From Pseudomonadota bacterium (lineage in GTDB: Bacteria > Desulfobacterota > Binatia > Binatales > Binataceae): a DNA stretch of 64,000 nucleotides. This document shows, piece by piece, positions 9,096-41,289 of this stretch (the stretch's first letter is position 1; every line of letters begins with the position of its first letter). The notes below the pieces were generated by a model. It had not been told where the DNA came from. It did no database searches and saw only the letters and a program-made list of their open reading frames with translations. Where the stretch lies: contig JAJPIF010000024.1 of NCBI GenBank assembly GCA_021324885.1, positions 1 through 64,000 on the forward strand, written 5' to 3'. The translations under genes and the position numbers were made by a program.

Positions 9096-12000
9096 TCACT
9101 TGCAGAACATCCCGCTCGGGACGCTCGGATACTTGCACTGCTGCCCGGCCAGGCCGGCCGATACCGGGTTGAAGCTGATGTTGAAGTTGCTGTCGTCGGC
9201 CTTGATGCAGTTCACCGACGGCGGCGGTATCCGCACGGCATTGCTGAAGTCTGAAGCCAGCGTCACGGCGAAGCCGTAGCACCCGCCCTCCGGGCAGTCG
9301 ACGTCCTTGCCCGCCCATCCGCAGATTGGGCTTACTCCGGTCTTGGGGTCGTCCTTGCACTGCAGATAAAGGTCATGCTGAACGGGATCGGTCGGATTAT
9401 CTTTCAGATTACATCCGCAGTACGATACTTTTTCCTTTTTTGGATCATCCGGCATCGTGGTTTTCACCGTGCAAAAGCTTGCCGGCTGACAAGCATCCTT
9501 TTTTGCCGCCGAGTATTGATCACTGAATTTGGTAACCTTTGACATATCCACGTTCACGGTTAGGATACCGTTGCTGTCCAAAGCGGCATTCCAACCGTCC
9601 GGGACCTTGCCCAAATCTGTAATCGTATAGGGCGCCGACTTCGGACTTACCTGCACCAGCGACAACTGCTTGCTCTTGTCAAATGACTTACCGACATAGA
9701 GTTGGTACTTCTGCTGAGTATCCGGCTTGGCGTAGAGCAGGAACACGTAGAATTTCATGCCAGGCTCGAAAACGCTCAGACTGCTCGGCGCCGTCGGCAA
9801 AATGGCCGCCTCCTGGGCCGCCTTACTGACCGTGGTATCGATGTAGTAGGTAGCGTGGTTGACGCTCAAGCTGCTGCGTTGGAAAACGTCCTGGCCGGCC
9901 AAAATGATCGGCTTGGCATTGCCGCCATCCATCGGAGTTATGGATTCACGGAACATCGGGACGCCGTAGCAGCCGTTCTCGGTACAGGAGCTATACCAGA
10001 CCGGACCGCTGCACACCGGAGCCATGGGCCCTGCCGTCAGAGCGCAGTCCGGATAGACCACGGTGCTCACGTAGTCATAGGGACTGGTCTTGGCGGTGCC
10101 GCCGGGAGATAAAGGTGCGATGGCGGCGTCGGAGGCGCATTCGCTGGTCTCGACCGGCGCGTTGAAAAACGGGTCTTCATTGACCGAGATCGTGTTCTTC
10201 AAGCCGGTCAGCGAACCGTCATCGTCATTCAGCTCGGTTTGCCGGTCGATATCGGTGTAGCCGTTGAACAGCCCTACCGCGAAGTAGTTGATCGGCGGAG
10301 TCAGTACTTGATTGGTGTAGGTGCAGTATCGCTTCTGGACCGCAGCGTAATCCGTCCAGAAGATGTGGGGATCAGTCAGGTCGAACTCCGGCTCGATAAC
10401 GAAGTGACGAATGTCAACATTGTCAAAAGAAAGATTGGTCGAGTGGAAGGCCGGCGGGTAGAAAAAGCCATTAGGCTGCTTCCACGCGATTGCCGCATTG
10501 GGCAGATAACATTGACCAATCGCCGGCTCCTTATCGTTGAGCGGCGTGGTAATCCCCTGGGGTATGCCGGTCACTCCAATCTGGAGCTGCATGTACTTGC
10601 TGCTGTTCGCGCAGGGATTTCCATTGCCTGCCTGCGGCTTGCAATCCGTGAGGGGAATCAACGTCGGATTGATGTCCAGGTAAGCGTTGGAATCCTGGTA
10701 GGAAGGGCCGTCGTAGATGTTGAACAGGCGCTGATTGTTGGCAAAACCAGCGGAGGGGATGCTCAGATCAAACTGCCGGTTGAAACATACATTGCCGGGA
10801 TAGGCACCGTTGGTCTGCTTCTCGCAAACCATCGGATTGGGAGTTTTGTATTTGGCATCGAAGGCGGCGCTGAAGGGATTAACCGGTCCCGAGTTCAGCG
10901 CGAACGGATTATCGCATTTCTTCGCATCACAGGTCTGGGTGTTGCCGACAAAAGCCGTTTTGCGGGTCAGGGCCCAAAAACCCAGCGGCGCGTCGGACAG
11001 CGTGTAGCCGCCTCCCGTGACCATCGTGATACCGCCGTTGAGCACGTCGGTGATCGCACTTTGGGTCAGCAGGTACCAACCCGACCGCAGCCAGATCGCG
11101 GAAAAAGTGGTCGGCGCCCAGGTGAATGACGACGTAAAACCGTCGAGCACGGTGACCGCGCAGTTTGCGATTTTGTCAGTTTCACATCGGGGCACCTCGG
11201 CCGCTTTGCTGCAATCCTTGCCGGCAGGGCATAAGGTGCCAAAGCGGCCGCCGCCGTTGGTGATCGGATAGTACGTTTCATCGTTGATGTGAGCTTTGTC
11301 GACGGGCAACGGCGCTCCCGGCGCGCTCAACGGCTTGACGCTGGGAGCCAATCCTCCACCGGGGTTCAGGATTCCAAAGCAAGGATCCGTTGTCTGAACG
11401 GTTTCGAACGCGGTCATCGCCGACACGCACGAGTTGCCGACGAATCGGTAAAGCGGCGAGGTGCTGGCACGGTCCAGGTTGTACTGCTCGGCGGCGTAGC
11501 TCTTGCCCCAATACTGATAAAGCGAGGGACCGCTGTTGGCGCCTGGCACCAGCCAGTAACAGGCGCCACAGGTGCCGGCGCCTGCTGCCATGTTGTACTC
11601 AAAATCATTCCATCCGTTCATGATCCAAAACACGGAAGGATGATTGGCGTCCGAATAGTAAGGAAATTTGTCGGTTGGGGCGTTGGGATAGTTCGGCGCG
11701 ACCAGGATGCCCGGTACCTTCAGCGGATTCTGCGGTCCATCGGTTGCCGAGCGCGCGAAGACGCCCAAATTAGCGTAGAGCTTGTTGTTGATCTCGGTCC
11801 CGTCCTCGATAAAGAAGCCGTGCCCGATGGACTTGTAGCCCACGTTGCGCGACACCAGCGTCCCCTGCGTCGCATGAATCGTGATCCAACGGGTCATCGA
11901 TTCGTTGATCGAGCAGTCCTTCACAAACGTTCCATCCGCCACCATGCGGTCCATGTGGAAGTGCACCGGATAGTGGCCGATGCTTCCGCCCTGACCCAAC

Positions 12001-13298
12001 TGCCTGAATTCAACCCCCTGCACCTGGAATGTCTTGAAGCCCTGCCGAGCGATGGTGTGCCCGCCGTAAAAATAGCCCGTCACCTTGTCAAAGGAGTCGT
12101 TGGGGCCGTCGCCCTTGGATACGATTCGGATGCTGCGGGTCAGCAGTCCCACCGCCGCCCGGGTGTCGATGAAGTTGGACAGCGCCAGCCCGGAACTATC
12201 CGGTCCGGTGCCCGGCCGCGCTTTGGCCAGCGAATACCTGACGCCGTTGTGCGGCCAGGTGACTTTCCCGTTGATCGTAAAGGTGCGTCCGTGTCCCTGA
12301 ACCTTCTTTATGGTCAGCACTTCGGAATGGGCCGCAACGTAGTCGGTAGTGGTCAGCACCACCTGCACGGTTTCCCCTATGGCCGGGTCCCAACCACTGA
12401 CGTCGCGATCCACCGTCAGGGTGGTGTCTCCGGGAGCTGCTGAAGAATCCAGCCGTACCCAACTCGTACCAGTGTTGGAGGGTTGGCTGTCATCCTTGCA
12501 AGCCTTTGATGTGGGATTAGCTGGATCGCAAATGGTGGCGCCGCGGGCGCCGTAAAGCTGCAGCGAACCGCCATAGGACACCGCCAGGACCTTGTGCCCG
12601 AAATAGGCGCCGGCGACGTCACCCTTGTCGAAAACGTCGTACTGGTAAAAGCAGTCTTTCTTGCCGTTGACGAGCTGCATTTCATTGCACGAGCCAGGGC
12701 GCCGCATGCTCGCCATCATCATGTTGGAGTTCCAGATGTCGTTGGGGCTGGTGGCCGGCACTCCACACGTTCCCCCCGGGCTCTTGCAGGTAATGCCGGG
12801 GTCGGTCGACAGGTTTGATGCGCCATACAAATCGATTTCGAGCGAACCCTGCCTTCCGATGGGTGCGGAGGGCGTGCCGGCGCGCAGCGTGCCGCCGTTC
12901 TCGATCAGGATCGACTCGGCCTTGAATATGATCTTAGTGTCGTCGAAGCGCAGGATGCCACCGGTCGCCGCGCCTGAGGCGGTGTAAATATTGACGTTGT
13001 GATAAAAGTAGGTGCCGTTGGGAACATTGCCATCGACCTCGCAATCCCCGGTGACCTCCAAATCTTCGCCGCTGCCGGCCGGCAACACTTTCAACGCCTT
13101 GCCGTCGCAAATCGTGGCTGGTGCAGCGAGCCCCACCGTGGAGGGGTGCAGGATCGCGTTGGAATCCGCCGGACTGGGAACCCAGCCCGCGGAACCCGGC
13201 ATCGGGATACCAGCGTTGGCGCCTGCGACCGCCCATGGCGACAGCATCAGCGTGACCAGCAGCGCCACGTTTATGGTCAGTCCAGTGCATACTTTCAT
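9096..13298 (-). CDS. large secreted G8-domain/beta-helix protein, CEMIP/TMEM2-like
   Basis: A 1400-residue exported protein. Residues 1-29 form a signal peptide (cleavage near AGANA). Residues ~95-250 look like a G8 domain (GILRFDDTKIIFKAE, ENGGTLRAGTP). Near residues 285-340 is a stretch like that of CEMIP/polyductin (PGDTTLTVDRDVSGW, VVLTTTDY). Residues ~430-520 match their beta-helix core (GHYPVHFHMD, CSINESMTRWITIHATQG, NVGYKSIGHGFFIEDG). The C-terminal third is Cys-rich, with no membrane anchor or sorting signal that I recognise. In animals this fold occurs in hyaluronan-degrading proteins; the bacterial substrate is unknown, perhaps a polysaccharide. GGAGG lies 6 nt before the ATG. No partner gene is adjacent. 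Confidence 0.8.
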   Translation of the reverse strand: MKVCTGLTINVALLVTLMLSPWAVAGANAGIPMPGSAGWVPSPADSNAILHPSTVGLAAPATICDGKALKVLPAGSGEDLEVTGDCEVDGNVPNGTYFYHNVNIYTASGAATGGILRFDDTKIIFKAESILIENGGTLRAGTPSAPIGRQGSLEIDLYGASNLSTDPGITCKSPGGTCGVPATSPNDIWNSNMMMASMRRPGSCNEMQLVNGKKDCFYQYDVFDKGDVAGAYFGHKVLAVSYGGSLQLYGARGATICDPANPTSKACKDDSQPSNTGTSWVRLDSSAAPGDTTLTVDRDVSGWDPAIGETVQVVLTTTDYVAAHSEVLTIKKVQGHGRTFTINGKVTWPHNGVRYSLAKARPGTGPDSSGLALSNFIDTRAAVGLLTRSIRIVSKGDGPNDSFDKVTGYFYGGHTIARQGFKTFQVQGVEFRQLGQGGSIGHYPVHFHMDRMVADGTFVKDCSINESMTRWITIHATQGTLVSRNVGYKSIGHGFFIEDGTEINNKLYANLGVFARSATDGPQNPLKVPGILVAPNYPNAPTDKFPYYSDANHPSVFWIMNGWNDFEYNMAAGAGTCGACYWLVPGANSGPSLYQYWGKSYAAEQYNLDRASTSPLYRFVGNSCVSAMTAFETVQTTDPCFGILNPGGGLAPSVKPLSAPGAPLPVDKAHINDETYYPITNGGGRFGTLCPAGKDCSKAAEVPRCETDKIANCAVTVLDGFTSSFTWAPTTFSAIWLRSGWYLLTQSAITDVLNGGITMVTGGGYTLSDAPLGFWALTRKTAFVGNTQTCDAKKCDNPFALNSGPVNPFSAAFDAKYKTPNPMVCEKQTNGAYPGNVCFNRQFDLSIPSAGFANNQRLFNIYDGPSYQDSNAYLDINPTLIPLTDCKPQAGNGNPCANSSKYMQLQIGVTGIPQGITTPLNDKEPAIGQCYLPNAAIAWKQPNGFFYPPAFHSTNLSFDNVDIRHFVIEPEFDLTDPHIFWTDYAAVQKRYCTYTNQVLTPPINYFAVGLFNGYTDIDRQTELNDDDGSLTGLKNTISVNEDPFFNAPVETSECASDAAIAPLSPGGTAKTSPYDYVSTVVYPDCALTAGPMAPVCSGPVWYSSCTENGCYGVPMFRESITPMDGGNAKPIILAGQDVFQRSSLSVNHATYYIDTTVSKAAQEAAILPTAPSSLSVFEPGMKFYVFLLYAKPDTQQKYQLYVGKSFDKSKQLSLVQVSPKSAPYTITDLGKVPDGWNAALDSNGILTVNVDMSKVTKFSDQYSAAKKDACQPASFCTVKTTMPDDPKKEKVSYCGCNLKDNPTDPVQHDLYLQCKDDPKTGVSPICGWAGKDVDCPEGGCYGFAVTLASDFSNAVRIPPPSVNCIKADDSNFNISFNPVSAGLAGQQCKYPSVPSGMFCK

Positions 13299-35619: not shown

Positions 35620-36945
35620 CTACTGCAGGATACGGTCGAGTCCGCCGGGCGAACTGAGGACCGCGACGTCCCGGTACGGCCCCGGTACCTGATCGTCGAT
35701 GGTGGGGCGCGTCGCCCAACCGATCGTGGTGTGCGAGTTCTGAAAGTCGATCATCTGGGGCGCGGAGTAACCGTCAAGGAACAGGAACGGGCTACCGTGA
35801 AACTCAAGCGGCGCGTACTTGTTCCAGCCGAACTTCCACAATTTCCCCTCGTTGTCATATTCGTCAATCATCATTGGCACCCAGGTCTCGCGATCCACGT
35901 AAAAGACCCGGTGGGAGAAGCAATACGGCCCCATTGTCGGCATCCATCGCAAGTCGATTATATCCATGGTGCGAGGCTCGAAATGCCCGGTTCCCGCTTT
36001 CGGCCAGCCAGGAAATGCTCCGCTGGTCGGGTCAGAAATGCCGACGTATGCCTTCGCGTTGAACGCCTGGTCCGGATCCTGAACGTTCGTCAGGACTTTC
36101 TTCTCGCCCAGGAAGGCCACCTCGAAGTACGGCGGATTCCACGCGTTGTCGTCCTGCACCCAGTCGGTGCCCAGGATCGGCGAGCATCGCGCGGCGCTCG
36201 ACAGGCGCAGCGATCGCCGCAGCGAGGGGAGAAAGACGTAGGTCTCGGGAACCCGGGTTGGATTGTCGGGCTGCGACTGCAATTGCGTGGTGTACTTGGA
36301 CTGCTCCGGCTCCAGCACCATGAAACGCGAGACATAAAACATCCCGCCGGCATACGGCATGTTGACCGGCATGCCCGGTTCGCTCAGATGGGAAAGCTGG
36401 AAGAAGCTGTCGTCACTGGTGTTCTGAGTGCGATTGCCGTACTTGTCAACCAGCCATCCGTCGGACAGCGAATGCATGTTGAACGGACGCAGCGGCGTCC
36501 AGGCGTTGTACATGATCTCGATCCCTTCGGTGGGTCCGGAGGGGTTCGGGAACGGCGGACCTGCCACCCAGTTGTGCATGATGTAACCGCCTTGCGCGGT
36601 GCGCTCCAGACGGGTCTGGCCGCCGTACCTTTCGCCGTCTTCCTTCCACTTCTGCGGCATCGCGAAGTGCGTCGTTGGTTTCACCACGATCGTGTATTCG
36701 GGGTCCGCGGTAACGTGGAACTGATAGGCGCCGCTAAAAGCCGCCCACAGGCTCACCGGGAGAAAACTTTTGTACTTCTGCCAGTTCGCGATGGTAATCC
36801 GGGTTCCCGGCGCAACGGTAGCGGCCGAACTCGCGTCCGTCAGGTTACGATAGTTCTGTTCGTTCCACTTCATCTGCGCACTCGCGATTCCGGCAGCCCA
36901 AAACAGGCATGACGCCAGGCACACGAATGCTATCGATCTTTTCAT
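35620..36945 (-). CDS. DUF1329 secreted envelope protein (copy A)
   Basis: A 441-residue exported protein with a signal peptide (MKRSIAFVCLASCLFWAAG, cleavage after ASA). It carries DUF1329 features: QNYRNLTDASSAATVAPGTRI-like start, PFPNPSGPTEG, the Arg/Cys core SLRRSLRLSSAARCSP, and a WVPMMIDEYDNEGKLWK-like segment. The family has a LolB-like outer-membrane lipoprotein-sorting fold and often sits beside DUF1302 and RND genes. This copy is the most divergent of the three here and has no small partner gene. GGGGAA precedes the ATG. It is last of the run, 77 nt after copy B. Confidence 0.9.
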   Translation of the reverse strand: MKRSIAFVCLASCLFWAAGIASAQMKWNEQNYRNLTDASSAATVAPGTRITIANWQKYKSFLPVSLWAAFSGAYQFHVTADPEYTIVVKPTTHFAMPQKWKEDGERYGGQTRLERTAQGGYIMHNWVAGPPFPNPSGPTEGIEIMYNAWTPLRPFNMHSLSDGWLVDKYGNRTQNTSDDSFFQLSHLSEPGMPVNMPYAGGMFYVSRFMVLEPEQSKYTTQLQSQPDNPTRVPETYVFLPSLRRSLRLSSAARCSPILGTDWVQDDNAWNPPYFEVAFLGEKKVLTNVQDPDQAFNAKAYVGISDPTSGAFPGWPKAGTGHFEPRTMDIIDLRWMPTMGPYCFSHRVFYVDRETWVPMMIDEYDNEGKLWKFGWNKYAPLEFHGSPFLFLDGYSAPQMIDFQNSHTTIGWATRPTIDDQVPGPYRDVAVLSSPGGLDRILQ

Positions 36946-37022: not shown

Positions 37023-38351
37023 TTACTGCATCACCTGGTCCATCCCGGCCGGTGTCCCCCAGCGGTCGTAATTGTCGTATTCCGCGGCATCCTGGTCGAT
37101 CTGGCCGCCGCTTTGTATGTCAAACGTCATATGGAGGTTCTGCACGTCCCAGAACGTGTATTCACCATCACCGGGACCGCCCGCTCCGGTACATACGTCG
37201 CCGTTGGTGCCGGGCAGTGGCATCGGGCGGTAAATTGAAGGTCCGGTCTTCCAGAGCTTGAGTCCGGAGTCGTACAGGTCCATCCAAATCGGCTGCCATG
37301 TCTCCTTATCGATGTATGCCATCCGGCTGCCGTAACAATAGCCAGCCTGCATCGAGGGTACGCGCCGGATATCCAGCACCGCCACGGGGCGAACCTGCCA
37401 GACCACGGCGTTGGGACCGGGATAATACAAGGGCTTGAAGTAGTTATTTTTGTCGGTGTAACCCTCTACCGGGTAGCCAACAAGGATTTTCTTGTAACCC
37501 AGGAAACGCGCCTGAAAAATCGGCGGCTGCAGGTTCATCGAACGTTCGTCGTCCTGCGTGTAATCGCTGCCGACCAGAGGCGAGCAGCGCGCCGCGGTAG
37601 TCAGGCGCAGCGAGCGTCGCAACGACGGAACGAACACGTAGGACTCGGGCAAATCCGCCGGATCATCGTGGAAGATCTGCAGAGAATTGACGTATTTGGA
37701 CTGCTCCGGCTCCATGATGACGTTGTTCTGGGTGAGAAAGACGTTCGGTGTATTGGTTGGAATCGTAATCGGCTTGCCCGGGTCGCTGACGTGCCGGATC
37801 TTGAAATTTACCTCCCTGACCTCGTTGACGTATTTATTGCCGTACCGATCCATGCCGAAACCCAGCTTGGCATACGTAGTAATGAGGTATGGGATATAGG
37901 CGTAATATTCATTGTAAAGAATCTGGATACCGGCCAGCGGACCGCTGGGATTCGGGAATGGCGCCCCCGCGACGTAGCCTTTGATCTCATAGCCACCATA
38001 CGAGGATTTTACGAGGGAAACCTGATTGGCATACTTTTCCGTATCCGCCTGATATTGTTTGGGGAGCGGCGTCGGAGTTGTGGCTACCACCTTCATTTGC
38101 GCATCGGCCGGCAGGCGCCAGAAAAATTTGCCGGCCCATATATCCTGCATCCCAACCGGCATAAAGTCCTTGTACTGCTGCCAGTTCTGCATCGTGATCA
38201 TCGTTCCCGGCGGGATGGTTCTGGCGGAATCCGAAGGGATCAGCGTGCTGTACGCTTGTTCGCTCCATGGTACCGCCTGGGCTCCGGCGATAGCCGGACA
38301 CAATACACAGATTGCAGTCACCACTAACAATAGTGCTTTGATTCTTCTCAT
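37023..38351 (-). CDS. DUF1329 secreted envelope protein (copy B)
   Basis: A 442-residue exported protein with signal peptide MRRIKALLLVVTAICVLCPA (cleavage near AGA). Diagnostic stretches include APFPNPSGPLAG, LEPEQ-like MEPEQSKYVNSLQIFHDDP, PSLRRSLRLTTAARCSP and VGSDYTQDDERSMNLQPP. It is nearly the same as copy C (39122) through the middle, so the two are recent duplicates. The start has GAGG close upstream. It is preceded at 121 nt by the small secreted protein gene at 38473 and followed by copy A, suggesting one transcript. The function is unknown; lipid or hydrophobic-substrate handling in the envelope is the usual guess. Confidence 0.92.
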   Translation of the reverse strand: MRRIKALLLVVTAICVLCPAIAGAQAVPWSEQAYSTLIPSDSARTIPPGTMITMQNWQQYKDFMPVGMQDIWAGKFFWRLPADAQMKVVATTPTPLPKQYQADTEKYANQVSLVKSSYGGYEIKGYVAGAPFPNPSGPLAGIQILYNEYYAYIPYLITTYAKLGFGMDRYGNKYVNEVREVNFKIRHVSDPGKPITIPTNTPNVFLTQNNVIMEPEQSKYVNSLQIFHDDPADLPESYVFVPSLRRSLRLTTAARCSPLVGSDYTQDDERSMNLQPPIFQARFLGYKKILVGYPVEGYTDKNNYFKPLYYPGPNAVVWQVRPVAVLDIRRVPSMQAGYCYGSRMAYIDKETWQPIWMDLYDSGLKLWKTGPSIYRPMPLPGTNGDVCTGAGGPGDGEYTFWDVQNLHMTFDIQSGGQIDQDAAEYDNYDRWGTPAGMDQVMQ

Positions 38352-38472
38352 GGTCGGCCTCGCTAAATTTTAGAATTTTCCAAGTAGTGAAACGGCAGCG
38401 GAGTGAAAAACCCACTGCCAACCTGTCCGTACGCATCAAATGTAAGGGAGACCCGGATCTGCCGGGCCGAAA

Positions 38473-38817
38473 CTAGTGGCCGTCAGGTTCGGCCGACACG
38501 ATACGGCGTAGTATCCGGCCCGTCCAGAACAGACCCGGCGCAATAAAGGCGCGCTGAGACGCCGGAGAAGCGGGCGGCGTCAAAGTGAAATCGCTTTCCG
38601 TAAGCGTGATCCCGCAATCCTGGGGAGCTTGAATATCACTCGCGCCGCTGGGAACCTCCAACGTCACATGGCGGCTCGAAGCCCCTCTGGCAGCGGATAA
38701 GGATGAGCAGGGGACGAGGCTGATCGATCCCAGGGAGCGTACTCCGCGCACACCCGCGAGTGCCGCGAAGCTCGCCAGCAGAAATGACGTGGTGAATAGC
38801 TTGATGCGCCGTCTCAT
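38473..38817 (-). CDS. small secreted protein with C-terminal RRIVSAEPDGH motif (copy 1)
   Basis: A 114-residue protein with a signal peptide (MRRRIKLFTTSFLLASFAAL) and no lipobox. The mature part is about 85 residues, Ser/Pro-rich, and ends LFWTGRILRRIVSAEPDGH. A paralogue at 40564 ends almost identically (FWFGRIRRIVSAEPDGH) and shares KL-TTS-LL-SF in the leader and a VTLEV/TVLEV patch. Each of the two genes lies directly upstream of a DUF1329 copy. A few upstream residues (from 38829) are possible, but ATG 38817 starts the leader. I do not recognise the family; the strictly kept C-terminus suggests a binding or anchoring role. Confidence 0.75.
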   Translation of the reverse strand: MRRRIKLFTTSFLLASFAALAGVRGVRSLGSISLVPCSSLSAARGASSRHVTLEVPSGASDIQAPQDCGITLTESDFTLTPPASPASQRAFIAPGLFWTGRILRRIVSAEPDGH

Positions 38818-38911
38818 GGTTGACGCCAAATCCCCAGCGTCCGTCAGCGTGTCTAAAAATCACGCTGCTAAAAAACACAGACTCTGACTAATACATCAAA
38901 CCACTAGACCA

Positions 38912-38941
38912 AAGCCTGTCACAAAGTGATGGGTTGAGCAA
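38912..38941 (-). promoter_or_regulatory. conserved element TTGCTCAA-N10-TGTG-N2-AGGCTT (copy 1)
   Basis: On the minus strand the sequence TTGCTCAA, 10 nt, TGTG, 2 nt, AGGCTT lies 94 nt before the start of the small gene at 38817. The same words with identical spacing occur 87 nt before the paralogous gene at 40917. The spacers differ, so selection on the words is plausible. It may be a binding site, a promoter or a structured leader. Confidence 0.55.
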
Positions 38942-39055
38942 CAGATTTGAGAAGGGTGCATTACAGGGTTTGCGAAGGGGAGGTTGCGCCTCGGCTCGGA
39001 GCAGCACTAACCGCGGCGCGAACCACGCCCATTGGAGGTCCGGGCGCAGAAAATC

Positions 39056-39087
39056 GGGTCCTGACGGCGCAACTGCCGCCAGGACCC
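39056..39087 (-). terminator. terminator hairpin after DUF1329 copy C
   Basis: Arms GGGTCCTG (39056-39063) and CAGGACCC (39080-39087), extended past one mismatch by CGGC/GCCG around a 6-nt loop. On the minus strand it is followed by GATTTTC, giving a short U-run. It starts 34 nt after the stop of the gene ending at 39122. Confidence 0.7.
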
Positions 39088-39121
39088 GCAATCACGATGT
39101 TATGGATGATGCGAGCGGATC

Positions 39122-40450
39122 TTACTGCATGATTTCGTCCATACCGCTCGGAGTTCCCCAGCGGGTGTAATTGTCGAATCTGCCGGCATCCTGATTGATT
39201 TCTCCCCCGTTCTGTATATCCAGCGTCAGGTGATTATTCTGAATATCCCAGAAGGTGTAGATGCCGTCTCCGGGACCCCCGGCACCGGTGGAAACGTCGC
39301 CGTCGGTGCCCGGAATCGGCATCGGCCGGTAAACCGAAGGGCCGATTTTCCACAGATGCATTCCGGAGTCGTACAGGTCCATCCAGACAGGCTGCCACGT
39401 TTGTTTGTCGATGTATGCCATCCGGGTGCCATAGCAGTACCCGGCGCTCATCGAAGGTACGCGCCTGATATCCAGCACCGCGACCGGCCGGACCTGCCAA
39501 ATCACCGCGTTGGGGCTGGGGAAATACAGCGGCGGGTAGTAGTTGGCCGTGTCGATGTAGCCCGGCTCAGGATAGCCTACGAGGATCTTCTTATAGCCAA
39601 GAAAGCGCGCCTGAAAAATCGGCGGCTGCAGATTCATCGAACGCTCATCGTCCTGGGTGTAGTCGCTGCCGACCAGCGGCGAACATCGCGCTGCGGTGGT
39701 CAGGCGAATGGACCGGCGCAGCGATGGAACGAAGACGTAAGATTCGGGCAAATCAGCCGGATTATCATGGAAGATCTGAAGCGAATTAACGTATTTGGAC
39801 TGCTCTGGTTCCATGATGACGTTGTTCTGAGTGAGGAAGACATTGGCCGTGTCGGGGATATCGACCGGTTTGCCCGGGTCGCTGAGATGCTTGACCTTGA
39901 AGTTAACCTCCCGCACTTCCTGGACGTACTTGTTTCCAAATCTGTCCATGCTAAAGCCCAGCTTGGCGTACGTCGTAATCACGTATGGAATATACGCATA
40001 ATATTCGTTGTACATGATCTCATCGCCGGCATCGGGTCCGCTTGGATGGGGAAACGGCACTCCGGCGACGTACCCGCCGATGTCGTGGCCGCCGTCCGGG
40101 TTTTTAATCAACTTTACCTGATTTGAATACTTTTCAGTATCTGCTTGATATTTCCTGGGCAGCGGTGTGGACGTGGTTTTTCCCACTACTATTTGCGCAT
40201 TGGCGGGTAGCTTCCAGAAGAATTTACCCGCCCACAGCTCCTGCATTCCAACCGGCATAAATTCCTTATATTTCTGCCAGTTCTGCGCCGTGATGACCGT
40301 TCCAGGCGCGATCGTTGCGGGTGAATTCCCCGAAGCCAGACTGTCGTAGTTTGACTCGCTCCAGGCTATTGGCTGGGCCTTGGCCACGCCGGTGCAGCAT
40401 AACCACACCGTCGCCACCGCGGCGAGCACAAACGGCTTTGTCCTTTTCAT
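39122..40450 (-). CDS. DUF1329 secreted envelope protein (copy C)
   Basis: A 442-residue exported protein with signal peptide MKRTKPFVLAAVATVWLCCT (cleavage after AKA). It keeps GVPFPHPSGPDAG, MEPEQSKYVNSLQIFHDNP, PSLRRSIRLTTAARCSP and SDYTQDDERSMNLQPPIF, and is close to copy B over most of its length. The frame is open to 40501, but ATG 40450 follows GAGGAG with good spacing and starts the leader. It is preceded at 113 nt by the second small secreted protein gene and followed by a terminator hairpin, so that pair is its own transcription unit. Confidence 0.92.
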   Translation of the reverse strand: MKRTKPFVLAAVATVWLCCTGVAKAQPIAWSESNYDSLASGNSPATIAPGTVITAQNWQKYKEFMPVGMQELWAGKFFWKLPANAQIVVGKTTSTPLPRKYQADTEKYSNQVKLIKNPDGGHDIGGYVAGVPFPHPSGPDAGDEIMYNEYYAYIPYVITTYAKLGFSMDRFGNKYVQEVREVNFKVKHLSDPGKPVDIPDTANVFLTQNNVIMEPEQSKYVNSLQIFHDNPADLPESYVFVPSLRRSIRLTTAARCSPLVGSDYTQDDERSMNLQPPIFQARFLGYKKILVGYPEPGYIDTANYYPPLYFPSPNAVIWQVRPVAVLDIRRVPSMSAGYCYGTRMAYIDKQTWQPVWMDLYDSGMHLWKIGPSVYRPMPIPGTDGDVSTGAGGPGDGIYTFWDIQNNHLTLDIQNGGEINQDAGRFDNYTRWGTPSGMDEIMQ

Positions 40451-40563
40451 AGTTCTCCTCTCTGTGGTGTTCTCCAACGTAATAGAGACAGAAACGGCCA
40501 CCCACCCGGCCGGTGGGTCGACCTCAAATGCAAGCGGCTCATCGTTGTCGCGCGCGGAGGATG

Positions 40564-40917
40564 CTAATGTCCGTCAGGTTCGGCGGAAACGATCCGGCGA
40601 ATTCGCCCGAACCAGAACGGCCCGAGCGCAAGCAAGACGTGCTCGCGCATCGGCGAATCCGGAGGCGCGAAGACCTGATTTGACGCCGAGACAAAATCGC
40701 GGGACATGCTGCGGGACACGAGCGGAGACTCGACATTTCCAATTCCGCCGGCTACCTCCAGCACCGTGTGGCGAACCAGCGAGGCAGCCGCGCCGGATGA
40801 TACGCGCACATCATTGGACCCCGTCGAGAACCGGGCGTGTACTGCGCGGGGGCCTTCGAGTACCAGGAAAGAGATCAGCAACACCGAGGTGGTGATCAAT
40901 TTCAGGGTTCTGCTCAT
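40564..40917 (-). CDS. small secreted protein with C-terminal RRIVSAEPDGH motif (copy 2)
   Basis: A 117-residue paralogue of the protein at 38473. The leader is MSRTLKLITTSVLLISFLVL (cleavage near VHA). The mature chain holds a RHTVLEVAGG patch and ends LGPFWFGRIRRIVSAEPDGH. The frame is open to 41061, but ATG 40917 begins the signal peptide. The middle of the two paralogues has diverged while the last 17 residues have not. It is the first gene of a pair with DUF1329 copy C. A conserved upstream element lies at 41005-41034. Function is unknown. Confidence 0.75.
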   Translation of the reverse strand: MSRTLKLITTSVLLISFLVLEGPRAVHARFSTGSNDVRVSSGAAASLVRHTVLEVAGGIGNVESPLVSRSMSRDFVSASNQVFAPPDSPMREHVLLALGPFWFGRIRRIVSAEPDGH

Positions 40918-41004
40918 TTTAGTTACGATAAAGGCCACCTGGCGGCGTTCTTTCCAGAACTGACTATTCGGACGCCCGCACTGATTACTTGACGCTAATG
41001 TATC

Positions 41005-41034
41005 AAGCCTTCCACAGATTGAATGTTTGAGCAA
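41005..41034 (-). promoter_or_regulatory. conserved element TTGCTCAA-N10-TGTG-N2-AGGCTT (copy 2)
   Basis: Minus-strand copy of the element described at 38912, with the same word order and spacing, 87 nt before the small gene start at 40917. The nearby minus-strand words TTGATACATTAG here and TTTGATGTATTAG at copy 1 are also alike. Confidence 0.55.
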
Positions 41035-41136
41035 TATGTTTGCTTGTCCGCCATCCAGCAATCCTGGCCCGGAGCCGTCCGAACAAACGGTTTACCCGCT
41101 TATCGCATGTGCGGTCCTTTGAGATCCTCTATCATT

Positions 41137-41289
41137 TCATAAGCTTGCCGATCGCACTTCACGATCTCGACCACCGAGCCGACCGCTGGCAGCAGCCGCA
41201 GCGACGGCGAGATTTACCACGACGAACTCGCGCTTATCGATCTGGTGGAACCGCTTGATTTTGACTCCCTGATGCGTGTCGAGCATCAT
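41137..41289 (-). CDS. possible 50-residue protein downstream of the efflux pump
   Basis: A short frame, starting at tandem ATG codons at 41289 and 41286, encodes a peptide with a polar first half (DTHQGVKIKRFHQIDKREF) and a small hydrophobic/alanine stretch (VVVNLAVAAAAASG). It lies 32 nt after the EmrB-like gene on the same strand. The composition is plausible for a protein, but there is no strong ribosome site and no family I know. It may be a chance frame. Confidence 0.2.
   Translation of the reverse strand: MMLDTHQGVKIKRFHQIDKREFVVVNLAVAAAAASGRLGGRDREVRSASL

Follow-up and report, generated by a model that had tools for sequence, protein, structure and literature searches.

A candidate family of upstream regulatory peptide genes ahead of DUF1329 and other transport and stress genes

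Nascent-peptide regulators with an anatomy like the one described below act on Sec/YidC genes, metal-related genes and TonB-related genes, according to the parts of the reports drawn on here (PMC10987492, PMC9426467, PMC9973294, PMC12992588). One of them is CruR (DUF2946), a copper-responsive upstream open reading frame (uORF) of Bordetella pertussis, which is separated from the next gene by a spacer of 162 nt and stands ahead of varied downstream genes (excerpts of PMC9426467). Among arrest peptides, the ends LPPP and DGMK-stop gave peptidyl-tRNA in vitro, as stated in the relevant portion of PMC10987492. As for the genes that such peptides might control here, DUF1302, DUF1329 and RND proteins have been linked in the metabolism or transport of hydrophobic compounds, namely in the Ame set of Castellaniella (PMC6394551) and in PP_0765/PP_0766 of P. 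putida (PMC10866462). The same protein families are found as downstream genes in the present work, whereas an upstream small gene is not mentioned in the passages of these two reports drawn on.

The window (the whole stretch of 64,000 nucleotides that was analyzed) carries two successive units on the minus strand, at 40917-39122 and 38817-37023, each made of a small open reading frame followed by a DUF1329 gene (Table 1). This arrangement had been pointed out in an earlier note on the same DNA and it holds, as does the description of the two DUF1329 copies as close duplicates (75% identity). The small proteins of the two units are homologous as well (42% identity, E 2.4e-16). The third DUF1329 gene may share the transcript. 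The decayed 3' end of a glyoxalase-like (VOC) gene is located just upstream of small gene copy 1 (window ~41101-41178, minus strand), and this gene occupies a matching position in genome G002 (L050 8916-9428) and ahead of the L166 DUF1329 of genome G001 (979-1494). At the latter locus the gap between the glyoxalase-like gene and DUF1329 (~1700-1990) may hold a decayed small gene, judged by eye from a broken frame and an end like FWAELPLRHRFISSRDDPHEPEPEA. Elsewhere in the window, positions 9096-13298 (minus strand) are predicted to encode a protein of 1400 aa whose N-terminus resembles a signal sequence.

Table 1. Features of the two-unit locus, in window coordinates.
Feature	Position	Strand	Remarks
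Small leader-like gene copy 1	40564..40917	-	117 aa, ATG start; hydrophobic helix at the N-terminus, then a linker predicted to be unstructured, then the C-terminal motif
Copy 1 conserved C-terminal motif, last 20 codons + stop	40564..40626	-	Ends ...GPFWFGRIRRIVSAEPDGH-stop; pN/pS 0.16, pS 0.68 (five members with the same end)
Copy 1 spacer, 113 nt	40451..40563	-	Shine-Dalgarno-like GAGAGGAG ahead of DUF1329 copy 1; fold z 0.33, no excess
DUF1329 (LolA-like) copy 1	39122..40450	-	442 aa; Pfam PF07044 E 2.1e-31, LolA_like E 2.2e-7
Small leader-like gene copy 2	38473..38817	-	114 aa, ATG start; N-terminal hydrophobic stretch
Copy 2 C-terminal end, last 20 codons + stop	38473..38535	-	...LFWTGRILRRIVSAEPDGH-stop
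Copy 2 spacer, 121 nt	38352..38472	-	Ahead of DUF1329 copy 2; fold z -1.85
DUF1329 copy 2	37023..38351	-	442 aa; Pfam DUF1329 E 4.6e-30; 75% identity to copy 1
Third DUF1329	35620..36945	-	40% identity to copy 1; without a small gene directly 5'

Searches with a profile iterated over 5, then 9, then 29 rows recovered 31 small proteins of this kind; of 41 genomes searched in the window's taxonomic family, 12 carry at least one. The window's own genome (G000) holds ten of them, followed by G002 (n = 5), G001 (n = 4), G437 (n = 3) and G020 (n = 2), with one member each in G003, G004, G010, G011, G023, G029 and G031. The other 29 genomes searched in the taxonomic family yielded no credible member, and neither did genomes beyond it, whether searched with the 5-row profile (395 phylum genomes) or with the 29-row profile (148 class and 395 phylum genomes); in these class and phylum searches 11-31 candidates were scored per genome, and the phylum set is a sample. 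As far as profile searches can tell, the family is narrow, patchy and lineage-specific. Several weaker matches were set aside. Those in the class outside the taxonomic family (E 0.003-0.01) are partial and lie within open frames of at least 270 aa, a phylum match in G332 (E 6e-4) sits in a 177-aa frame with neither signal segment nor C-terminal motif, and a match in G006 (E 0.009) was left out because its C-terminal end lacks the motif. Matches with E above ~0.002 in the earlier family search, or above 0.001 in the final search, were not used; many contain internal stops or fall in long frames. Assignment to a known family was rejected after Pfam and NCBIfam scans of 29 of the 31 members (the two G020 members joined later) returned single-member matches only, the best being DUF5316 with E 0.0014. 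No description of the family was found in the literature searched.

All 31 small proteins are 110-125 aa long (mean 117.1, sd 3.4) and all carry an N-terminal hydrophobic stretch, as judged by hydropathy rather than by a signal-peptide predictor. The common plan continues, usually, with a motif near residue 50, then with a linker and a C-terminal motif close to the stop codon. In many members the first of these motifs reads R-[HNY]-x-x-[EQ]-E-V or a variant thereof, while a frequent C-terminal pattern, placed a few residues before the stop, is R-[RK]-[ILT]-x-P-x-S/P-x-D-D. Five DUF1329-linked members of the window's genus end with G-x-FW-x-GRI(L)RR(I/L)-x-S-(A/S)-EPDGH-stop, and 14 of the 21 invariant columns in their alignment are found within the last 19 residues. 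One more DUF1329-linked member from this genus, the sixth (in G001), ends differently, with HRRTSPSPAADDNCSAAVTSL, and those of other genera (g9 and g17) end with HRKILHPSPEDG, HRKLLPPSPQDG or HRRILPPSPNDDK, nearer to members ahead of other genes (e.g. LFHRRTLPPSPDDGN) than to the window ends. Read from the list of ends and without statistics, the C-terminal end seems to track the lineage and not the downstream protein. AlphaFold2, run on three sequences, predicts a single helix at residues 2-21, with a mean pLDDT of 52.6; given the shallow alignment, this only hints that the region outside the helix is unstructured.

This anatomy recalls several described regulators, each with its own differences; the likenesses given here refer to parts of the cited reports. 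With CruR the small genes share a small, poorly structured ORF at the head of an operon, a signal peptide, two conserved motifs of which one is C-terminal, a long spacer (162 nt in CruR against 113 nt and 121 nt for the two window copies) and varied next genes (PMC9426467). In contrast to CruR, RAPP is absent from the 29 C-termini listed, window copies included, and the small proteins have no conserved Cys column for a CXXC: beyond residue 40 they contain between 0 and 4 Cys, and a single His is frequent in the residue-50 motif. Pfam DUF2946 matched none of the 29 members scanned at E up to 1. CutF-like uORFs are similar in being shorter than 150 aa, with an N-terminal hydrophobic segment and a same-strand gene within 1000 nt, in having ACR_tran among their neighbours and in carrying PP near the C-terminus (PMC9973294). 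Here, 12 of the 31 members have PP among their final 15 residues (16% expected by chance; binomial P 0.002, uncorrected for relatedness), and neither of the two window copies does. The family further differs from CutF-like uORFs in lacking a conserved Cys/His cluster (metal-binding motif) and in its downstream genes, those named here being mostly DUF1329, DUF1302, DksA/TraR and Usp/RND.

Similarly, the arrest peptides SecM, VemP, MifM, ApdA, NAP-stop and DGMK-stop resemble the small proteins in having an N-terminal localisation signal, a spacer of more than 30 residues and a conserved C-terminal end (PMC10987492). In the window family the C-terminal sequence is conserved among homologues and the spacer exceeds 30 residues, which are the sequence criteria for arrest peptides, and the ends LPPSPDDGN-stop, IPPPPDDAH-stop and EPDGH-stop recall the arrest-tested LPPP and DGMK-stop of that report. 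Unlike the Sec/YidC arrest peptides, the window copies do not precede secA, secDF or yidC, and none of these was found among the downstream proteins scanned by Pfam. A localisation signal combined with a C-terminal arrest motif ahead of non-export genes is also shared with the RAPP/RGPP uORFs that precede TonB-related, YcnI and other genes; these are, however, defined by RAPP or RGPP in the passages of PMC12992588 drawn on, and the listed ends here contain neither. Because the window copies have neither PP nor a Cys/His motif, show no DUF2946 and are not sec/yidC uORFs, we place them in none of these families, and we favour likening them to CutF-like, CruR and Sec/YidC regulators in way of working only.

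We then considered selection on the peptide. Among the five members with the EPDGH end, pN/pS is 0.59 at the N-terminus, 0.81 in the middle and 0.16 in the last 20 alignment columns, with pN values of 0.38, 0.51 and 0.11 respectively, and pS stays at 0.63-0.68 throughout, so that synonymous sites are near saturation. The small-gene frame is genuine, since pN is much lower than pS across the final 20 columns of these members. Low pN next to nearly saturated synonymous sites means that selection acts on the peptide rather than on the RNA; a conserved RNA element behind the C-terminal conservation is ruled out, as third codon positions in the conserved end are just 46% identical and conservation lies at the amino-acid level. 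The pattern extends through the family: pN is lower in the C-terminal 20 residues than in the linker in 8/8 subgroups (26/31 members, leaving out L049, L123, L126, L132 and L164), and pN/pS is lower in 7/8, the exception being the g2/g13 pair (0.50 vs 0.41). A conserved C-terminus of ~20 residues, preceded by a hydrophobic N-terminal part and an unconstrained linker, might also be expected of a secreted signalling peptide freed from the C-terminus. We hold this to be very improbable, since no recurrent export, processing or receptor gene was seen among the neighbours, most of which are unannotated, and one genome carries many paralogues with differing ends. In 6/8 subgroups the pN/pS of the residue-50 motif falls below that of the linker; the window's group (0.77 vs 0.76) and the g2/g13 pair are the exceptions. 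Constraint on this motif could equally be due to a mature protein, and it counts against a regulatory uORF.

The genes in the vicinity of family members are diverse. The next gene encodes DUF1329 in 10 of the 31 members, distributed over three genera (g1, g9 and g17; the L130 match covers the N-terminal part only), and DUF1302 in two, with one additional barrel-like protein without a Pfam match (L132). RND, or Usp followed by RND, is located downstream of four members (in L118 a 123-aa ORF without family precedes Usp and RND), zf-dksA_traR downstream of six (L123 below the cut-off), and a pyridine nucleotide oxidoreductase and a nucleotidyl transferase downstream of one each, the latter in L120, with a short ORF on the opposite strand called between the two. 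Three members are followed by an unnamed gene, L119 has a sub-cut-off downstream match only, L122:2128 is followed only by a 128-aa unnamed ORF, and for L057 no gene follows on its strand within 1.2 kb. In 29/31 members the next gene lies no more than 650 nt away on the same strand, vs 174/296 other genes of the same loci, one gene-calling procedure serving both sets (nominal Fisher p 6e-5, with related members). Spacers measure 79-209 nt in 16 measured pairs and elsewhere reach 545 nt, or 634 nt by the gene caller (L117). At the C23 locus, a small gene, two DUF1329 genes and an MMPL pump gene follow one another on one strand.

This distribution bears on the proposal of the earlier note that the small protein and DUF1329 work together. 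The pairing does recur beyond the window, in the 10 members from three genera, but the remaining 21 of 31 are followed by another gene or by none, and homologues scattered without DUF1329 are what the note itself had named as refuting its proposal, which in that form does not hold. A dedicated secreted partner of DUF1329, whether chaperone/substrate or docking protein, would account for the retention of the small gene in both duplicated units, for the recurrence in three genera and for the enrichment within the own genome, where 4 of the 10 members directly precede a DUF1329 (hypergeometric P 9e-7, assuming 4200 genes and 36 DUF1329 genes). It accounts poorly for the abundance of DUF1329 without a small gene: the own genome (4.5 Mb) contains 38 matches to DUF1329, a few being fragments of a single gene, against four small gene-DUF1329 pairs, and ten DUF1329 genes at seven loci, 62-75% identical to window copy 1, have no recognizable small gene directly 5' (one of these, L172, is the third DUF1329 in a small-gene-headed cluster). 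Two genomes of the same genus contain at least 41 and at least 42 close DUF1329 matches. None of the papers listed in the literature search counts DUF1329. Moreover, the middle of the small protein evolves near-neutrally, and an ectodomain that is near-neutral outside the C-terminus and predicted, from a shallow alignment, to be unstructured argues against a folded chaperone or partner. We consider a dedicated partnership quite improbable, and the small genes look more like built-in on/off sensors, that is leader peptides, than like partner proteins. A small gene conserved beside another gene is not necessarily its protein partner.

On balance, though only just, we read the small genes as uORFs, confined to this lineage, whose peptide products regulate the transport and stress genes behind them. 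The targeting helix, free linker, constrained end, varied next genes and spacer together make up the anatomy of a nascent-peptide regulator, and the downstream families vary as they do with CruR and CutF-like uORFs; the absence of PP and RAPP from the window copies counts against it, as do the patchy occurrence of the family, the lack of a nearby same-strand gene at L057 and the intervening opposite-strand ORF at L120. The product would act mainly during its own synthesis: the N-terminal helix would bring the nascent chain to the membrane, and the conserved C-terminal stretch next to the stop codon would pause the ribosome near or at termination. How long the ribosome pauses, depending on export or on a signal that the exposed residue-50 motif senses, would determine expression of the downstream gene, here the LolA-like DUF1329, whose family is tied to hydrophobic-compound transport. 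Radiation of the family has placed paralogues ahead of transport genes (DUF1329, DUF1302, RND) and of stress-type genes (Usp, DksA/TraR). If true, the leader principle extends to hydrophobic-compound transport, giving a first handle on the control of such systems.

At the RNA level, no conserved hairpin or Shine-Dalgarno sequestration was detected at six DUF1329 loci (fold z -1.93 to 0.36). Masking the small-gene end together with the first 15 nt after the stop gave a marginally larger release of the downstream Shine-Dalgarno site in 16 pairs than in 51 control pairs (p 0.027, uncorrected). These were the 16 of 31 members picked for spacers of 79-209 nt, with controls from a simple gene caller; the effect is driven mainly by L006 and L130, and the three companion comparisons were not significant (p 0.44, 0.27 and 0.13). 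C>G differences were small and inconsistent. The RNA evidence that the downstream Shine-Dalgarno site is freed is weak.

The two constrained motifs and freer linker in most subgroups also fit a membrane-anchored small protein acting in trans, whose helix would stay in the inner membrane and whose exported C-terminal tail would serve as a linear motif for a common envelope partner (a protease, pump or sensor), each paralogue tuning its neighbouring system. Envelope proteins are indeed common among the downstream products, but the cytoplasmic DksA/TraR and Usp families are also present there, and the C-terminal ends vary across the family, both in their composition and in how far they lie from the stop, which would be odd for one receptor. 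We regard this alternative as unlikely. Returning to the uORF reading, a broader form of it is possible rather than probable: the nascent peptide would have multiplied into a set of paralogues, 10 of them in a single genome and most with a gene or operon of their own behind them, and C-terminal ribosome pausing would read nascent-chain export or a non-metal envelope or lipid signal, coordinating a scattered DUF1302/DUF1329/RND and stress regulon without a transcription factor.

Finally, other small proteins were noticed in the vicinity of these loci. Glycine/tyrosine-rich small proteins recur near several small leader-like genes (L057 7740-8252, L121 4560-5033 and L117 5670-6047), two of them with lipoprotein-like N-termini. 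Two g17 genomes encode low-complexity Asn/Asp-rich small proteins next to the DUF1329 locus (L163 5666-6007 and L133 692-949).
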